Shown one piece after another: positions 2,106 through 18,286 of a DNA stretch of 35,211 nt (position 1 is the stretch's first letter; the number at the start of each line of letters is the position of its first letter). Made by a program: the position numbers and the translations under genes. A model generated the notes under the pieces. The model worked only from the letters and a program-made list of their open reading frames with translations, did not search any database and was not told the origin of the DNA. This stretch comes from a virus: positions 1 through 35,211 of IMG/VR virus record IMGVR_UViG_3300022745_000104; one strand, given 5' to 3'.

Positions 2106-4445
2106 ATGCAAACGTCACCTGCAGCAACTGGAGTTGATGTGCACCTGGTCGCAACGGCGATCGGTCGCACCACCCGGGCTGTGCAATTGCGAGCAGACAG
2201 TGAGGCGTGGCCGTACACAACCGCGTCCGGCAGCGCGCGCCGGCGTCTCTATCGCGTCGAGTCGCTCCCTGCCGATGTCCGGAGTCGCGTCCAGGCATAC
2301 CAGCAGCAACAGGCCATGGAGCGAGCCCGCGCCACCCTGTCCGGATCCATGGATCTGGCTATTGCAGGAAAGGCACAGCGAGGCGTTACCGCCTTGCAAG
2401 TCGTGCCGCGCTCGACCGCCGTCACGAGTACTCCCCACGAGATCCAGCTGGCCGCGCCCAGCCGCCCGGGCTCCACCCGCGCCGAGCGCATCCGCCGCCA
2501 GGCGCGTGAGCTGGTGGTCCGCGCCGTGCGCGACCTGGTTGACCGTGGCGGCTATCGCCTGAACGGCGCTTGTGTCGAGCTGCTCGAAGCCGCGCGTTAC
2601 GACGATCTCAGCCACCCCATGCAGCAGGCCCTGCGAGAGGCCTGCGACCCCCGCGGCCGCGAGAGCCAAGGCGACGAACTGCCCAGCGTGGCCACGCTGC
2701 GCCGCTGGGTCGAATCGGCCCAGCGTGGTGTGGACCTCACCCCGAAGCCGAGCGCCCAGGTCGACCTGGCGGTGCGGCCGTGGTACGGCCCGCTGTTCGC
2801 GCTGACGGATCGCCCGCAGAAACCCACGATCCGCGCGGCCTACGAGCAGCTGATCCAGCACTGGCGCGACGAGTGGGCCGACTACCCGGGCGCCGAGCCG
2901 CCGAGCTACGACGCGGCAGTGCGGGCCTACGCCAAGCGCTCCGGTACCGACAAGCTCAAGGGCCGCAACACGGGCAGTGCTCTGCGCTCGAAGACGTTCT
3001 ACAAGAGCCGGGACTACTCGGGCCTGCAGCCGTTCTTCGAAGTGCACGCCGACGGCTGGAATTCGCACTTCACGGCGCCGCACCCGGTGACGGGCGAGTA
3101 CGTCAGCTATGAGCTGTGGCACTTCCACGATACCGCCACCCGGTACGTGACGCCCATGGCCATCGGGCTCACCGAGAACACCGACATCATCATGCAGGGC
3201 CTGCAGTCCTGCATCGCAGTGGGCGGCTTGGTCGCGATCCTGCAGACCGACCACACCAGCAGCGTCAAGAACAAGCGCTGGCTGGAGGACAACGCCGGCC
3301 TGGCCGAGCGCCTGGGCCTGTCCATCGTCCACCCGCAGGAAGTCGGCAACAGCCAGGCCAACGGCATCGCCGAAAACTTCAACACGTGGCTGGACAAGGA
3401 AAGCCGCGAGCTGGCGACCTACCAGAACCCGAACCGCATGGACAGCGGCACGTTCGTGAAGGTGCGCCGCCTGACGAACGCCATGGTCAAGGCCTCGGCC
3501 AAGCCCGCTGAGCGCGCCGCGCTGCGCGCCAAGGCGATTTCGCTGGGCAAGGGCTTGGTGTTTGACAGCCACGCGGAGGCGGTGGCCTGGATCCACTCGA
3601 AGGAAGTCAAGTGGAACAACCGACCGCACCGTTCGCTGCCCAAGGTGCGTAACGCCGCGGGCAAGTTGGTGCACCAGACCCCGGCCCAGGCCCTGCAGGC
3701 TGCACGTGACGCCGGATGGGAGCCGATGCTGCTGAGTCACGAGCAGCTCGTCGACGAGTTCCGGCCCCACTTCCGCAAGTTCGTCCGCCGTGGTGCCGTC
3801 ACGCCGTTCGGCGGCATGCGTTACCACCACGCCGACCTGGCGCACTACGAGGGCGCCGAGGTGCTGGTCGCGGTCGACAAGGACCAGCCTGACCAGGTGT
3901 GGGTCAAGGACCTGGAAGGCCGCGCGATCTGCGAGGCGCGGTTCGTCGAGGCGACCGGCCCGCGGATTCAGAGCATGGCCGAGGCCGCGGAGCGCCGCCG
4001 CGCCGAGCAGCAGATCCGCCTGCGCGAGCGCCAGATCGAGCGCATCACCGACCGCCTGCCCCGCGAGGTGCTTGAGGCCCACGACGGCATGCCGGCCATC
4101 GAGTCGCGCCTGACGAACCAGGAACTGACCGAGGTCGTGCAGCAGCTGGTCGAGATGGGCCCGGCCCCGGTCAACGTGGTGCCGCTGCGCGACTCCCTGC
4201 AGGAGCTGCAGGCCGAGGTCACCGAGCCGGACGGCGATGTGCATCCGATGGCCATGTACGTGGCCATGAAGCGGCGGGAGAAGGAGGAAGCGAAGGCCGC
4301 CGAGCAGCGCCGCAAGGATGAGGCGATGTTGGCCTGGCACGCCAAGAACGAACGCCGCCGGGAGGCCGCCGAGAAGGGGGTGCCGTTCCTGGAGGACGAC
4401 ACCGACGGCGAGGACGACGAGGGTTTTGAGAAGGCCGCCCGGTGA
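2106..4445 (+). CDS. A: Mu-type DDE transposase A
   Basis: This protein cuts and joins the prophage ends during integration and replicative transposition. It has 779 residues, somewhat longer than Mu A. The N-terminal 70 residues form a winged-helix DNA-binding segment (VATAIGRTTRAVQLRA...GSARRRLYRVESLP). Helical DNA-binding domains follow to about residue 250. The RNase H-like core has candidate catalytic residues D316 (VHADGWN), D382 (LQTDHTSS) and E423 (QANGIAENFN). A Mu-transposase C-terminal beta-barrel spans about 540-620, then a long charged helical tail (620-779) that could contact protein B. The ATG at 2106 follows AGGGG at proper spacing; the frame is open further upstream but is only overlap with the ner-like gene. 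The gene lies immediately upstream of B. Confidence 0.95.
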   Translation: MQTSPAATGVDVHLVATAIGRTTRAVQLRADSEAWPYTTASGSARRRLYRVESLPADVRSRVQAYQQQQAMERARATLSGSMDLAIAGKAQRGVTALQVVPRSTAVTSTPHEIQLAAPSRPGSTRAERIRRQARELVVRAVRDLVDRGGYRLNGACVELLEAARYDDLSHPMQQALREACDPRGRESQGDELPSVATLRRWVESAQRGVDLTPKPSAQVDLAVRPWYGPLFALTDRPQKPTIRAAYEQLIQHWRDEWADYPGAEPPSYDAAVRAYAKRSGTDKLKGRNTGSALRSKTFYKSRDYSGLQPFFEVHADGWNSHFTAPHPVTGEYVSYELWHFHDTATRYVTPMAIGLTENTDIIMQGLQSCIAVGGLVAILQTDHTSSVKNKRWLEDNAGLAERLGLSIVHPQEVGNSQANGIAENFNTWLDKESRELATYQNPNRMDSGTFVKVRRLTNAMVKASAKPAERAALRAKAISLGKGLVFDSHAEAVAWIHSKEVKWNNRPHRSLPKVRNAAGKLVHQTPAQALQAARDAGWEPMLLSHEQLVDEFRPHFRKFVRRGAVTPFGGMRYHHADLAHYEGAEVLVAVDKDQPDQVWVKDLEGRAICEARFVEATGPRIQSMAEAAERRRAEQQIRLRERQIERITDRLPREVLEAHDGMPAIESRLTNQELTEVVQQLVEMGPAPVNVVPLRDSLQELQAEVTEPDGDVHPMAMYVAMKRREKEEAKAAEQRRKDEAMLAWHAKNERRREAAEKGVPFLEDDTDGEDDEGFEKAAR

Positions 4446-13238: not shown

Positions 13239-14866
13239 TGGCCAACAAGACCAGGCACAAGGAATTCGCGGCCAACCTGGCCGAGTTCGCCGCAGCGCTG
13301 CGCCAACGCATCGAGGCCGAGGTCAGCGGGTTCTCCCCCGACGCGAATGCGCGCGCGGAGCGTCGGCTGCGGTCCTACAAGGACTTCGGTTTCTTCGTCG
13401 GGACCTACTTCCCCCACTACGTCCGCAGCCCGCACCGCAGCCAGCTGCATGACTACCTGTTCGGCCGACTGGTCGAGATCGTCGAATCGCCCAAGAGCGA
13501 AGTCGACGCGATCGCAGCGCCCCGCGGCGAAGCCAAGTCGACGCTGGTCAGCCAGCTGTTCGTGCTCTGGTGCATCCTGACCGAGCGCAAGAAGTACCCG
13601 GTCATCGTGATGGACTCGATCGACCAGGCCTATCCGATGCTGGAGGCCATCAAGGCGGAGCTGGAGTTCAATCCGCGCCTGGCCATGGACTACCCGGAGG
13701 GGGTAGGCCCAGGCCGCGTCTGGCAATCCGGGACCGTTGTAACGCGGGGCAACGCGAAAATCCAGGTGGCCGGCAGCGGCAAGAAGCTGCGCGGCTTGCG
13801 GCACGGCCCGCACCGGCCCGACCTGGCTGTTCTCGACGACATCGAGAACGACGAACAGGTCCGCAACCCGGACCAGCGCGACAAGCTGCAGTCCTGGCTG
13901 ACCAAGACCGTGCTGCCGCTCGGCGGCGCTGTCGGGAAGTTCGACGTCGTCTACATCGGCACGATCCTGCATTACGACTCGGTGCTGAGCCGGACCCTGG
14001 CCAACAAGCTCTGGCGCTCGGCCCGGTTCAAGGCTCTGCTGCGCTGGCCCGACCGCATGGACCTGTGGGACCGCTGGGAGGAGCTGCTGCGCAACGACGG
14101 CGAGGAGGTGGCTGACGCCTACTACTCCAAGCACCAGGCCGCGATGGATGAAGGCTCCATCGTGAGTTGGAAGGCGCGGCCGCTGGTGGCCCTGATGAAG
14201 ATCCGCGCCCGGGACGGCCACGACACGTTCGACAGCGAATACCAGAACGACCCGGTCGCCGGCGACGGCGCGCCGTTCGCCAACATCATCCAGTTCTGGG
14301 TCAACAAGCTCGCGGACTGGGTGATGTTCGGGTCCTGCGACCCGTCGTTGGGGAAGGCCGGCGCCGGGCGTGACCCCAGCGCCCTGCTGGTCGGGGGGCT
14401 CAACCGGCAAACCGGAGTGTTGTCCGTCGTCGAGGCCCTGATCAAGAAGCGCCTGCCGGACACGATCATCACCGACGTCATCGACCTGCAGCGCGAATAC
14501 CGGTGCCTGCTCTGGGCCATCGAGGTTGTCCAGTTCCAGGAGTTCCTGCGCTCCGAACTCGTCAAGCGATCTGCCGCCGCGGGCATCCCGGTACCGGCCC
14601 GGGCAGTAACGCCGCACAGCGACAAGCTGCTGCGCATCGAGACCCTGCAGCCGCATGTGAAGAACGGGCTGATCCTGCTGCACCCGTCCCAGGTCACCCT
14701 GCTGTCCCAGCTGCGCCATTTCCCCAAAGCCGACCACGACGACGGCCCTGACGCGCTGCAGATGCTGTGGGCCATCGCGACCGGTGGCTTGGCGGCCATC
14801 GGCGTGGCAAGCCGCCCCCGCCGCCGCGCCGGTGCGCCCGGCGTTGACCTTCGAGGCTACTCATGA
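13238..14866 (+). CDS. Large terminase subunit (Mu gp28-like)
   Basis: This 542-residue motor pumps DNA into the head and cuts it. The ATPase domain has a Walker A-like APRGEAKST (residues 94-102) and Walker B DLAVLDDIENDE (about 195-206). The C-terminal nuclease has an acidic residue in FGSCDPS (D368) and the conserved HDDGPDALQ (500-508). The length is normal for the family. It overlaps both neighbours. Mu-like phages package by headful from the left end with host DNA attached; the right-hand host DNA follows naturally. Confidence 0.95.
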   Translation: MANKTRHKEFAANLAEFAAALRQRIEAEVSGFSPDANARAERRLRSYKDFGFFVGTYFPHYVRSPHRSQLHDYLFGRLVEIVESPKSEVDAIAAPRGEAKSTLVSQLFVLWCILTERKKYPVIVMDSIDQAYPMLEAIKAELEFNPRLAMDYPEGVGPGRVWQSGTVVTRGNAKIQVAGSGKKLRGLRHGPHRPDLAVLDDIENDEQVRNPDQRDKLQSWLTKTVLPLGGAVGKFDVVYIGTILHYDSVLSRTLANKLWRSARFKALLRWPDRMDLWDRWEELLRNDGEEVADAYYSKHQAAMDEGSIVSWKARPLVALMKIRARDGHDTFDSEYQNDPVAGDGAPFANIIQFWVNKLADWVMFGSCDPSLGKAGAGRDPSALLVGGLNRQTGVLSVVEALIKKRLPDTIITDVIDLQREYRCLLWAIEVVQFQEFLRSELVKRSAAAGIPVPARAVTPHSDKLLRIETLQPHVKNGLILLHPSQVTLLSQLRHFPKADHDDGPDALQMLWAIATGGLAAIGVASRPRRRAGAPGVDLRGYS

Positions 14867-16326
14867 CCGCTACCAACCGGCCCCGCTCCAGCAACCTGGT
14901 CGGGGCAGACATCGCGACGCGGATGGCCGCGTTCGACTTCTCGGTGATCGGGCAGCTGCTGCCCAACCCAGACCCGCTGCTCAAGGAATTGGGCCAGGAC
15001 ATTCGCGTCTACCGCAACCTGGCACGCGACCCGCACGTGGGCGCCTGCATCCGGCGCCGGAAGTCCGCGCTCAAAGCGTTGCAGTGGGGGCTCAACCGCA
15101 GTAACGCGCCGGCCCGCGTCGAGAAGTCCGTCCGCGCGATGCTGGATGACCTGGACATGCAGCGGATCATCGGCCAGGCGGCCACCGCGGTGCTGTACGG
15201 CTACCAGCCGCTGGAGTTGACCTGGTCGGGCTCGGCCGGTGGGGTCTGGGTGACTGACATCCAGGCCAAGCCGCCCGAGTGGTTCGCGTTCGACCCTGAC
15301 GCCTGTCTGCGATTCAGGACCCGCCAGGACCCGTTCATGGGTGAGCTGCTGCCTGACCGCAAGTTCATCCTGGCGCGCCAGGATGCCGACTACCGGAACC
15401 CCTACGGAGACGCCGACCTGGCGCTCTGCTACTGGCCTGTCCTGTTCAAGAAGGGCGGGCTGCGATTCTGGGTCACGTTCGCCGAGAAGTTCGGCGGCGC
15501 GTTCGCAGTGGGCAAGCTGCCGCGCGGCACCTCGGACGCCGAGCGCAGCGCGATGCTGGCTGCGTTGGAGGATCTGATCCAGGACGCGGTGGCCACGATC
15601 CCGGACGACGGCAGCGTCGAGCTGATCGAGTTGGCGGGCAAGTCGGCCTCTGGTGATCTGTACGAGCGCCTGGCCATGTACTGCCGCAGTGAGATCAGCA
15701 TCGTTCTGACCGGCACCAACCAGACCATGGAGGCCAGCAGCAACCGGGCCTCGGCGCATGCCGGCATGGACGTCGCCGACTCGCTGCGGGACGCAGACGC
15801 CGAGATCGTGTGCGCCGCAGTCAACCAGGCCATCCGTTGGGCGGTCGACCAGAACTACCCGGGCGCCGCAGCGCCGGTCTTCGAGATGTGGGACCAGCGC
15901 GCGCGGGATCAGCTGCAGGCCCAGCGCGACAAATCCAACCACGAGGCAGGAGCGAGGTTTACCAATGTCTATTTCCAGCGTGCCTACGGCTACCAGGACG
16001 GTGACCTGGTGCAGCCCAACACGCCTGACCAGGTCGCCGGTAACGCCGCACCTGCCGCGTTTGCCGAGGCCGCGGCATCGGCCAACGCCGCCGACCCCAC
16101 CGCGGCCGACACGGCGGCATTGACCGCTGCAGGCGCACCTGCCCTTGCCGGGATCGTGGATCGGCTGCAGCGCCTGGTTGCGGACGCCCCCGACATGGCG
16201 ACGCTGCAGGACCAGCTCACGGCGGCCTACGCTGATCTGCCGACCGATGACCTGGTCAAGGTGATGGGCGCCGCGTTCGCGCTCGCGCAGCTCAAGGGCA
16301 TGGCCGACGCGGCCGAGGGGGTCTGA
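14863..16326 (+). CDS. Portal protein (Mu gp29-like, DUF935)
   Basis: This 487-residue protein matches the DUF935 portal family: DPHVGACIRRRKSALKALQW, GYQPLELTW, a central KFILARQDADYRNPYGDADL, VTFAEKFGGAFAVGKLP and the C-terminal GTNQTMEASSNRASAHAGMD. It forms the dodecameric ring at the head vertex. A long Ala-rich region near residues 395-425 precedes the C-terminal helices. It begins with a 4-base overlap with the terminase (ATGA) and ends in an overlap with the MuF gene. Confidence 0.95.
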   Translation: MTATNRPRSSNLVGADIATRMAAFDFSVIGQLLPNPDPLLKELGQDIRVYRNLARDPHVGACIRRRKSALKALQWGLNRSNAPARVEKSVRAMLDDLDMQRIIGQAATAVLYGYQPLELTWSGSAGGVWVTDIQAKPPEWFAFDPDACLRFRTRQDPFMGELLPDRKFILARQDADYRNPYGDADLALCYWPVLFKKGGLRFWVTFAEKFGGAFAVGKLPRGTSDAERSAMLAALEDLIQDAVATIPDDGSVELIELAGKSASGDLYERLAMYCRSEISIVLTGTNQTMEASSNRASAHAGMDVADSLRDADAEIVCAAVNQAIRWAVDQNYPGAAAPVFEMWDQRARDQLQAQRDKSNHEAGARFTNVYFQRAYGYQDGDLVQPNTPDQVAGNAAPAAFAEAAASANAADPTAADTAALTAAGAPALAGIVDRLQRLVADAPDMATLQDQLTAAYADLPTDDLVKVMGAAFALAQLKGMADAAEGV

Positions 16327-17567
16327 TGCCGGCGACGATGGAGCTGGGCTTGGGGACGCCCTTCGAGGACCAGCTCGCGCACTTCCGGGCCAAGCTCAAC
16401 TTGCCCACCGAGGCCTGGGACGATGTGATGCGCAGCGCCCACGATCGCGCGTTCGTGGTGGCGGGCGCGATGAAGGCAGATTTGCTGCAGGACCTGCGCA
16501 CCGCCATGGACAAGGCCATGGCCGGCGGCGGCCAGGCGCAGTTCACGCGGGACTTCAGGGAGATCGTCGCGCGCCACGGTTGGGAGGGCTGGACCGGGGA
16601 GGGATCGGCCCAGGGTGAGGCCTGGCGCGCCCGGACGATCTACCGGACCAACATGGCCAGCAGCTACGCCGCCGGGCGTTACAAGCAGCTGACCGAGCCC
16701 GACTTCCTGCGCGCCAACCCGTACTGGCGTTACCGGCACGCGGACGGCGTCACCCACCCGCGGCCCTTGCACTTGGCCTGGCACAACCTGTGCCTGCCGG
16801 CGACGCACGAGTTCTGGAGGACCCACTTTGCCCCAAACGGCTGGGGCTGCAACTGCAAGGTGTTCGCCGAGCCTGCACCGCCGCCTGGTGCGAAATTGGA
16901 GCCGCCTGCGGGCTGGGATTCGATCAATCCCAGCACCGGGGCCCAAGTGGGCATTGATCGCGGGTGGGACTACACGCCCGGCCAGGCGGATGCCACGCCG
17001 TGGCTCGACCTGGTCAACCAGAAGCTGCTGAACTTGGACGCGCCCATCGGGGCGGCGATGGCTGAGGTGCTGGAGCCGGCCATTGTTCAGGACCGTCGCC
17101 GAGCCTGGAGTAATGCGGTTGAGCGGGTGTTCACCGAGAAGCGGGCGACAAACGAGACGTTCGCTGTCGGGAGCCTGCGTCCGTCGGTGGTCGCTGAGCT
17201 GGCCAAGGTCGGGGTCACGCCAGACACTGCCAGCATCATGATCCGGGACGCAGAGATGCTGCACGCGATCCGCGCACTGAAAGAGGCGCGCCAGGCAGCC
17301 GTGCCGGAGGATCTGTGGAGGCAGCTGCCGGACCTCTTGAAGACCGCTGAGGTCTACCTGGACACCGAGGACAAGACCGCCCTGATGTTCGTGGTGGACT
17401 ATCCGCCCAGGCTGGCCAAGTTCGTCATCCGGGTGAACATGAGTCTGAAGACTCGGCTGGATGGCGTGCGGGAGACGCTGGTGGCCAACTTCATTCAGAC
17501 CGCTGGGTTGCTCCCTCCCGGGAACATCAGGGGTGACGCGAAATACCTGCGTCTGCCAGAGGAGTGA
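16326..17567 (+). CDS. F: MuF head protein (gp30-like) with possible nuclease-like C-terminal domain
   Basis: This 413-residue minor head protein helps head assembly and is probably packed in the virion. The MuF domain spans about residues 55-182, with ARTIYRTNMASSYAAGRY, PYWRYRHADGVTHPR and the conserved APNGWGCNCKV (C175, C177). A second domain, about 260-395 (NAVERVFTEKR, ETFAVGSLRPSVVAEL, SIMIRDAEMLHAIR, ALMFVVDYP, RVNMSLKTR), resembles the Barnase/EndoU/ColicinE5-D/RelE-like phage nuclease type (PBECR) found at the end of many MuF proteins. That assignment is my recognition, not a database result. The domain could be a delivered toxin or simply structural. Confidence 0.88.
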   Translation: MPATMELGLGTPFEDQLAHFRAKLNLPTEAWDDVMRSAHDRAFVVAGAMKADLLQDLRTAMDKAMAGGGQAQFTRDFREIVARHGWEGWTGEGSAQGEAWRARTIYRTNMASSYAAGRYKQLTEPDFLRANPYWRYRHADGVTHPRPLHLAWHNLCLPATHEFWRTHFAPNGWGCNCKVFAEPAPPPGAKLEPPAGWDSINPSTGAQVGIDRGWDYTPGQADATPWLDLVNQKLLNLDAPIGAAMAEVLEPAIVQDRRRAWSNAVERVFTEKRATNETFAVGSLRPSVVAELAKVGVTPDTASIMIRDAEMLHAIRALKEARQAAVPEDLWRQLPDLLKTAEVYLDTEDKTALMFVVDYPPRLAKFVIRVNMSLKTRLDGVRETLVANFIQTAGLLPPGNIRGDAKYLRLPEE

Positions 17568-17572
17568 GGGGG

Positions 17573-17656
17573 TGAGCGGCGCCGGATTCGAACCGGATAA
17601 TAGTGTTCAGCCGTCGCCGGCCTATGCCTAACCATTCCCATTGGAAACAACCGCTC
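17573..17656 (-). pseudogene. tRNA-like relic (acceptor stem and T arm)
   Basis: On the minus strand, GAGCGGT at the 5' end pairs with GCCGCTC at the 3' end (7 pairs including one U-G), followed by an A in the discriminator position. CCGGTTCGAATCCGG is a near-canonical T arm with loop TTCGAAT. The middle of the 84 bases does not form a normal D arm or anticodon arm, and CCA is not encoded. It is probably a decayed or captured tRNA fragment. It lies antisense in a gap of the late operon. Confidence 0.4.
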
Positions 17657-17666
17657 AGGCGGCAAT

Positions 17667-17674
17667 AGTAACGC
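17667..17674 (+). promoter_or_regulatory. AGTAACGC site before the gpG-like gene
   Basis: This copy lies 10 bases upstream of the ATG at 17684, overlapping the start of the ribosome-binding stretch GGAGGCGAC. It is oriented with transcription. Confidence 0.5.
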
Positions 17675-17683
17675 GGAGGCGAC

Positions 17684-18286
17684 ATGGTTGCCATCAGGGT
17701 TGAGGTCAAGGACGCCGCCGTCATGGCCACGCTGCACCAGCTGCAGGCGCGGGTCACCAACACCAGGTCGCTGCTGGCATCGGTCGGGGAGCGCCTGCTC
17801 ACCCGGATCGATGCCCGGTTCACCAGCCAGACCGATCCGGACGGCCACGCCTGGCAGCCGCTGTCTGCCGCGACACTGCGGTCCAAGCGGGCCGGCAAGC
17901 CGATCCTGACCGACCGCGGCGACCTGCGGCGCTCGATCGTGCGCCAGGTCACCGGCGGCTCCAGCCTGGTGCTCAGTTCGAGCGAACCCTACGCGGCGAT
18001 CCAGCACTTCGGGGGGACGATCCAGCGGGAGGCGCGGCAGACTGCGATCCGCCACCGCACGGACGCCAAGGGCAACCTGTTGCGCACGGCGATCATGGGC
18101 GGCCGCGGCTTGGTGTTCGCCAAGGCGTCGCACAAGCGCGCGCTGGAGCGCACTGTGACCGTGGGGCCACACGCCATCGTCATCCCGGCCCGGCCCTACT
18201 TCCCGGTCCGCCCGGACGGCACAATCTACGCGGCCGACCAGGCGGCGATCCTGGACGAGGTCAACCGGTGGTTGGCCCTGCGCTGA
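17684..18286 (+). CDS. G: Mu gpG-like virion morphogenesis protein
   Basis: This 200-residue protein has the phage virion morphogenesis pattern: RIDARFTSQTDPDGHAWQPLS, KPILTDRGDLRRSIV, YAAIQHFGGTIQ and a final IPARPYFPVRPDG. Members act in head completion or tail joining. The gene has a gap of 116 bases before it and a terminator after it, so it may be the last gene of the first late transcript. GGAGGCG precedes the ATG. An in-frame start further downstream is less likely. Confidence 0.88.
   Translation: MVAIRVEVKDAAVMATLHQLQARVTNTRSLLASVGERLLTRIDARFTSQTDPDGHAWQPLSAATLRSKRAGKPILTDRGDLRRSIVRQVTGGSSLVLSSSEPYAAIQHFGGTIQREARQTAIRHRTDAKGNLLRTAIMGGRGLVFAKASHKRALERTVTVGPHAIVIPARPYFPVRPDGTIYAADQAAILDEVNRWLALR

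Follow-up and report, generated by a model that had tools for sequence, protein, structure and literature searches.

How could a lysogen survive if the head of its own phage carried an active RNase toxin, and what would such a toxin cut? Both questions are raised by the IMG/VR virus record IMGVR_UViG_3300022745_000104, analysed from position 1 to 35,211 (35,211 nucleotides, hereafter the window), which encodes a MuF (gpF/gp30-like) minor head protein. The toxin half of such a system was predicted in 2017; how lysogens survive an active MuF-C domain, and what it targets, had been open. An earlier note, made from the letters alone, had read the end of the window's MuF protein as a toxin-like nuclease domain, had seen no immunity gene nearby and had taken a tRNA-like trace in the following gap for a relic. 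We find that this gap carries a conserved, covarying RNA on the opposite strand, tightly linked to the domain. We estimate a probability of about two in three that a MuF-borne RNase toxin packaged in the virion is paired here with an RNA antitoxin. This RNA would shield lysogens and would probably mimic a tRNA.

The MuF assignment of the earlier note was borne out by a Phage_Mu_F domain in the open reading frame (ORF), and the span that it had singled out (17085-17535) corresponds to residues 254-403. Among the relatives retrieved with MuF, identity over the N-terminal ~220 residues is 38-55%, and beyond residue ~222 many of the C-termini are unrelated or absent. The C-terminus is, therefore, an exchangeable cassette: the same kind of N-terminus is followed by a window-type (MuF-C-like) domain, a PBECR2 domain, a metallopeptidase-like HExxH domain, a JAB-like domain or no extension, in line with the polymorphic C-termini expected at this position.

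An HMM (hidden Markov model) built on 22 rows, followed by further scans, gave 82 distinct sequences of the window-type domain. Their conserved positions are Gly282, Asp308, a His at 313 or 319, Leu334-Pro335, Asp346, Lys365, Asn388 and Thr/Ser392. Exactly one His (313 or 319) together with Thr/Ser392 was found in 78 of the 82 rows, an overall His count that is inflated because one of the domain searches used a pattern holding the His motif. The 22 rows found via MuF or the HMM only comprise 15 with His313, 6 with His319 and 1 with both, the HMM behind them being itself derived from His-bearing rows. Both His positions are empty in two of the 82 rows, phage Mu and JBD67.

According to the literature, PBECR domains, MuF-C of phage Mu gp30 among them, are predicted RNases whose first helix carries a His and whose C-terminal part carries a Thr or Ser (PMC5512222). 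This pair is intact in the window copy, as His313 and Thr392. The window protein itself had no Pfam PBECR or MuF_C match, even at E 10, whereas relatives in its alignment do match these families: among 61 members, window included, there were 27 matches to MuF_C (best E 2.9e-7), 8 to PBECR3 and 4 to PBECR2 at E <= 1. A comparison of the domain profile with five PBECR2-type rows by hhalign was negative (probability 1%). The domain is the counterpart of the C-terminus of Mu gpF (tblastn alignment 12-357, 29%), so the suspicion that it might be no more than that structural end is half right, yet the Mu copy is itself described as an inactive PBECR version (PMC5512222).

AlphaFold2 predicted a compact alpha/beta domain for residues 225-413 (mean pLDDT 94.3, pTM 0.90), a confident model of a separate domain. 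Foldseek found no match to the domain model in the PDB at E <= 0.001 (best E 0.22), and PDB sequence searches with the window protein gave no relevant match. The best solved structures in a second-look alignment were the BrnT RNase toxin (Z 4.8) and two CDI toxins (Z 3.7 and 3.3), all under the tool's safe level. A viral structure library returned nine matches at E <= 0.001, including records named 'Nuclease' and 'Minor capsid protein'. The structure searches suggest a nuclease fold without proving it; the assignment to the BECR-type MuF-C group, with the predicted His/Thr pair intact, is supported. We take the window domain to be of the MuF-C type and probably an active RNase.

A covarying tRNA-like RNA behind the MuF gene

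The minus strand of the 116-nt gap between the MuF gene and the following gpG-like gene contains a seven-pair acceptor-like stem and a canonical T-arm. The element was not called as a genuine tRNA, with no ARAGORN call in the window and no Rfam match at gathering, and the only Rfam match near the gap was unrelated (E 0.82). When the Rfam tRNA model was run on six element loci, only one (L096) came near, with 24.8 bits against a gathering threshold of 29. Searches of Rfam 15 gave no family for the element, four RNA-only loci included, and defence-system models gave no useful match. A small immunity ORF was not found in the gap, where the longest ORF starting has 21 codons.

The window and 17 relatives, taken from the same gap in other phages, form the alignment of a first RNA class (class I). 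Nine of its 15 pairs show change on both sides, with 30 double-change cells against 7.0 in shuffles (0/500); compensatory change is frequent in the acceptor stem, and the middle arm is variable. Behind domains of the His319 type lies a second class, unlike class I in sequence and equally structured, with compensatory change in 16 of 21 pairs and 53 cells against 11.0 in shuffles (0/500). A third class covaries in 13 of 15 predicted pairs. In most cases, terminal inverted repeats scored in single sequences did not differ significantly from shuffles, and the case for structure is therefore built on covariation.

In most loci, the RNA is antiparallel to the toxin gene and starts 0-13 nt past its stop codon. 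The ratio of G-U to A-C cells (22:3, 18:4 and 9:4 in classes I, II and III) favours the strand opposite the toxin in all three. In 40 of 52 elements, a -10-like hexamer precedes the RNA by 4-22 nt, compared with a shuffled mean of 12.0 (maximum 21 in 300 shuffles) and with 6 on the control side. Given the covariation, the G-U strand bias and the enrichment of -10 boxes, the gap element looks, from its sequence, like a small RNA gene that is transcribed on its own. The tRNA-like feature of the earlier note is, therefore, real, but belongs to a conserved RNA family and is not a relic; and the gap that had seemed to lack an immunity gene holds, in the RNA accompanying this domain, the best candidate for an immunity factor.

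A covariance model of class I (R1) had matches in 115 of 385 genomes. Of the 30 top-scoring loci, 29 were host tRNA-Gln(TTG) genes and the remaining one was an element beside a stand-alone toxin, which is why we regard class I as resembling tRNA-Gln. The element differs from host tRNA-Gln(UUG) in not being called a tRNA by ARAGORN and in its variable middle arm. This likeness suggests that a class I toxin would act on tRNA-Gln. Class II is without such likeness to an abundant tRNA, since its model (R2) gave only six matches in 369 genomes.

Linkage of the RNA to the C-terminal domain

Exact patterns taken from the RNA alone, run against the viral collection without recourse to protein sequence, occurred at 55 sites, 46 of which have the toxin domain antiparallel within 400 nt (38 of 41 for class I, 8 of 14 for class II). 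The RNA class follows the His position: class II accompanies His319 in 18 of 18 cases, and classes I and III together accompany His313 in 32 of 33. Neither R1 nor R2 matched within this MuF set where the C-terminus was of the metallopeptidase or JAB kind or was missing. In the count of rows with a gpG match, the 61 rows include duplicates of the same contig. MuF genes without a C-terminal extension leave a gap of <= 25 nt.

Where a MuF-C gene is followed by gpG, the gap is at least 90 nt in 11 of 11 cases with the His and <= 9 nt, or an overlap, in all four without it: Mu, JBD67, a Klebsiella phage and a Shewanella phage. This gap table, like the class lists, was compiled by hand from earlier outputs. 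It leaves out D108, a near copy of Mu, as well as KS10 and TJ1, past whose MuF genes no gpG-like gene was found; KS10 lacks the His and has no R1/R2 match. Divergent or degenerate-looking C-terminal domains of other families occur in the MuF proteins of Pseudomonas phage H71 (L186) and of L045; the gap is absent there too, an echo of the loss in Mu and JBD67.

One locus (L001) carries two tandem RNAs of different class between MuF and gpG (4222-4297 and 4350-4442, minus strand): a class I element, beside the His313 toxin, and an extra class II element. In another (L032), a MuF protein with a different small C-terminal domain is accompanied by a class II RNA (4243-4320, minus strand; R2 E 2.2e-10) that lies outside the training set; the RNA partner may, from this case, reach beyond the MuF-C family.

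The domain also occurs outside phage heads. A 2.3-Mb bacterial genome (G712), drawn from the class of a Paracoccus genome, holds seven stand-alone copies of ~160 aa (L062 and L065-L070), each on a separate contig. R1, trained on phage MuF loci only, matched beside four of them (L065, 4.7e-8; L066, 4.7e-6; L069, 2.1e-5; L067, 0.027), and class II elements, themselves part of the R2 training set, lie beside L068 and L070. In L062, the stand-alone toxin is followed by a truncated copy. One flank of the G712 copies contains a short tandem repeat. Class III elements, read by eye, follow the domain in a 604-aa non-MuF protein (L061) and in an unannotated copy on a Rhizobium plasmid (L189). L061 and an 869-aa ORF (L080) are long proteins outside the usual MuF architecture that end in the domain.

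Nine of the 55 pattern sites are without the toxin: one (L226) looks like chance in coding sequence, one (L239) is cut short, and the rest look RNA-only. Seven contigs carry elements with no toxin found beside them, one of these contigs being cut short. In L221, elements of class II, I and II lie within ~270 nt, and L232 has two of class II. Among the six R2 matches in the 369 genomes, L176 adjoins a toxin domain. Near L177-L179 there are gpG-like fragments, but the toxin-domain HMM did not match there, though one frame in L177 resembles a decayed copy by eye. L180 and L181 are marginal matches. Polymorphic toxin systems are known to include arrays of immunity genes that lack their cognate toxin (PMC11699363); the RNA-only arrays, therefore, fit an immunity role and not a purely cis-acting one. 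An Rfam sRNA-Xcc1 match (L232:4921-5008, plus strand, 81.7 bits) lies a few hundred bases from the two toxin-less class II RNAs.

Competing readings and known systems

If the pair works as we propose, an RNase toxin of the MuF-C group would be built into the phage head and enter the host with the DNA, a route that we infer from MuF biology in the literature. The prophage would make the antidote, a small folded RNA with its own promoter on the opposite strand, just past the toxin gene. The RNA would imitate what the toxin cuts, fill the active site and neutralise the enzyme; in the window's class it would look like tRNA-Gln with an altered anticodon arm. Since it would be made from the opposite strand, it could protect a lysogen while the late genes are off, shielding it from the toxin of superinfecting virions and from leaky toxin. 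Immunity is the best reading because the covariation is seen at the level of the fold, the RNA is linked to the active site and RNA-only arrays exist. A tentative wider version, to which we give slightly worse than even odds, is that BECR-type RNase toxins of phages and of some bacterial genomes pair with antiparallel RNA antitoxins that mimic tRNA substrates. The window's class would then mimic tRNA-Gln and its virion-delivered enzyme would cut tRNA-Gln, the RNA-only arrays would serve as poly-immunity loci, and the RNA would have been dropped in Mu and other phages without the catalytic His.

Several observations weigh against this reading. The Fisher p of 7e-4 for the gap table, like the other p values, overstates the association because linkage and RNA-class matching partly share descent. 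Only six of the 11 His-bearing gap cases are R1/R2 matches; Pseudomonas phage B3 belongs to the class III alignment, and the RNAs of L002, L010, L044 and Pmp9 were judged by eye. Curvibacter phage TJ1 has His313 (with Asn388 lost) and yet no R1/R2 element. In Pasteurella Pmp9, the gap with a tRNA-like element is present, yet residue 392 is Asn, and the His was read by eye where the aligner had put a gap. For the window RNA, a recognisable -35, a consensus promoter and a transcription terminator were all sought and not found, and the plus-strand fold of the gap is no better than shuffles (z 0.31). Finally, the antiparallel position directly past the stop codon would also suit an RNA that acts by pairing with the toxin mRNA.

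That position and the promoter-like box would fit a type I-like control, in which a cis-antisense RNA pairs past the stop codon of the toxin gene and lowers its expression, leaving the protein untouched. We consider this unlikely: pairing needs no conserved fold, yet the helices covary; such control would be useless against a toxin protein arriving in the virion; RNA-only arrays exist without a toxin gene; and the class of the RNA goes with the kind of active site in the protein. Less probable again is a non-protective RNA that the nuclease would use as substrate or guide, or that would act as a processing signal in the late mRNA. A tRNA-like shape would suit an RNase of a fold class that, as described in the literature, includes tRNA-cutting toxins. 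However, the G-U test places the RNA opposite the late-mRNA strand, and the RNA occurs without the toxin.

Phage integration sites often use tRNA sequence, and C-termini are swapped among relatives, so the element could be a captured tRNA fragment at which recombination or integration takes place; it would let C-terminal cassettes move and be linked to the toxin only mechanically. We regard this as very improbable, as compensatory changes affect several helices, there are three distinct RNA classes, the -10 enrichment is one-sided, and the RNA models do not match beside the other C-termini of the same MuF set. That the C-terminus serves purely as a structural part of the head, next to a phage small RNA with no connection to it, would agree with the lack of a clear PDB match (best Foldseek E 0.22) and with Mu working with a His-less domain, but deserves hardly any credence, given the active-site conservation and the same domain, with adjoining RNA, standing alone outside phage heads and in the 604-aa non-MuF protein.

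The proposed immunity to a MuF-borne toxin by RNA has partial counterparts. With the published MuF-C/PBECR group (PMC5512222), the window domain shares its place C-terminal to MuF, the predicted metal-independent BECR-type RNase and the inactive version in Mu gpF. The available part of that paper does not mention an RNA partner; in addition, the window copy escapes Pfam models and the family described here has alternative His positions, 313 or 319. Other MuF polymorphic toxins of temperate phages, including the Ct_MAD extensions of Proteobacteria (PMC5576092) and the prophage toxin Bxa (PMC11699363), likewise combine an N-terminal carrier with swapped C-termini and an immunity factor expected just downstream. 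The known immunity factors of these toxins are small proteins, whereas the downstream candidate here is an RNA antiparallel to the toxin gene. ToxIN (PMC5772629) and other type III toxin-antitoxin systems share an RNase-type toxin and a folded RNA antitoxin; here, the RNA would likewise bind and inhibit the toxin. ToxI is described as a co-transcribed pseudoknot (PMC5772629), whereas the RNA reported here is tRNA-like and lies downstream on the opposite strand behind a promoter-like box of its own, and the toxin is carried by a virion protein. The window pair would work like a type III pair but lacks its co-transcription, and was for this reason not filed there.

The toxin domain group is, thus, already published, while its RNA partner appears undescribed in the open literature searched and in Rfam 15: judged by titles and abstract openings, we recognised no description of an RNA partner of MuF or BECR toxins. 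The linked tRNA-like RNA offers one testable answer to both lysogen survival and target. If true, it would represent RNA immunity to a virion-packaged toxin, distinct from the protein immunity of other MuF toxins and from co-transcribed type III antitoxins, and would account for natural phages such as Mu that are without both the catalytic His and the RNA. The covariance models from this work can be used to find further such modules.

Gene neighbourhood and other gaps

The MuF gene lies in a Mu-like phage head region, with the gene order terminase, portal, MuF, gpG-like neck, protease and major head protein. The features of the locus are collected in Table 1.

Table 1. Positions in the window of the MuF gene, its domain and active-site residues, the RNA element and the flanking genes
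Feature	Position	Strand	Evidence or remark
Portal protein gene	14863..16326	+	phrog_113; context
MuF (gpF/gp30-like) minor head protein gene, 413 aa	16326..17567	+	
Phage_Mu_F domain, residues 61-179	16506..16862	+	PF04233, E 1.4e-10
C-terminal MuF-C/PBECR-like domain, residues ~248-413	17067..17564	+	Alignment of 82 sequences; AlphaFold2 pLDDT 94.3
His313, predicted catalytic residue, N-terminal helix	17262..17264	+	Alignment; role from literature (PMC5512222)
Asn388	17487..17489	+	Alignment, N in 74/82
Thr392, predicted second active-site residue	17499..17501	+	Alignment, T/S in 80/82; role from literature (PMC5512222)
tRNA-like RNA element (class I), candidate RNA antitoxin	17573..17657	-	Model R1, 70.5 bits, E 4.5e-19 (the window is a training row of R1); sole R1 match in the window; covariation
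T-arm-like hairpin CCGG-TTCGAAT-CCGG	17582..17596	-	
-10-like hexamer TACTAT	17665..17670	-	7 nt 5' of the RNA; good -35 not found
gpG-like tail completion/neck gene	17684..18286	+	phrog_26, E 1.1e-34; 116 nt past MuF

Gaps before gpG are also occupied behind MuF genes with other C-termini. In eight loci with metallopeptidase- or JAB-like C-termini (L007, L008, L026, L013, L037, L028, L011 and L024), an ORF of 54-76 codons fills the gap, a candidate protein immunity gene or cofactor. In L015, L018, L022, L025, L030, L036, L039 and L048, other small C-terminal domains are followed by ~90-430 nt before gpG, some with terminal inverted repeats; these gaps possibly hold further RNA classes.
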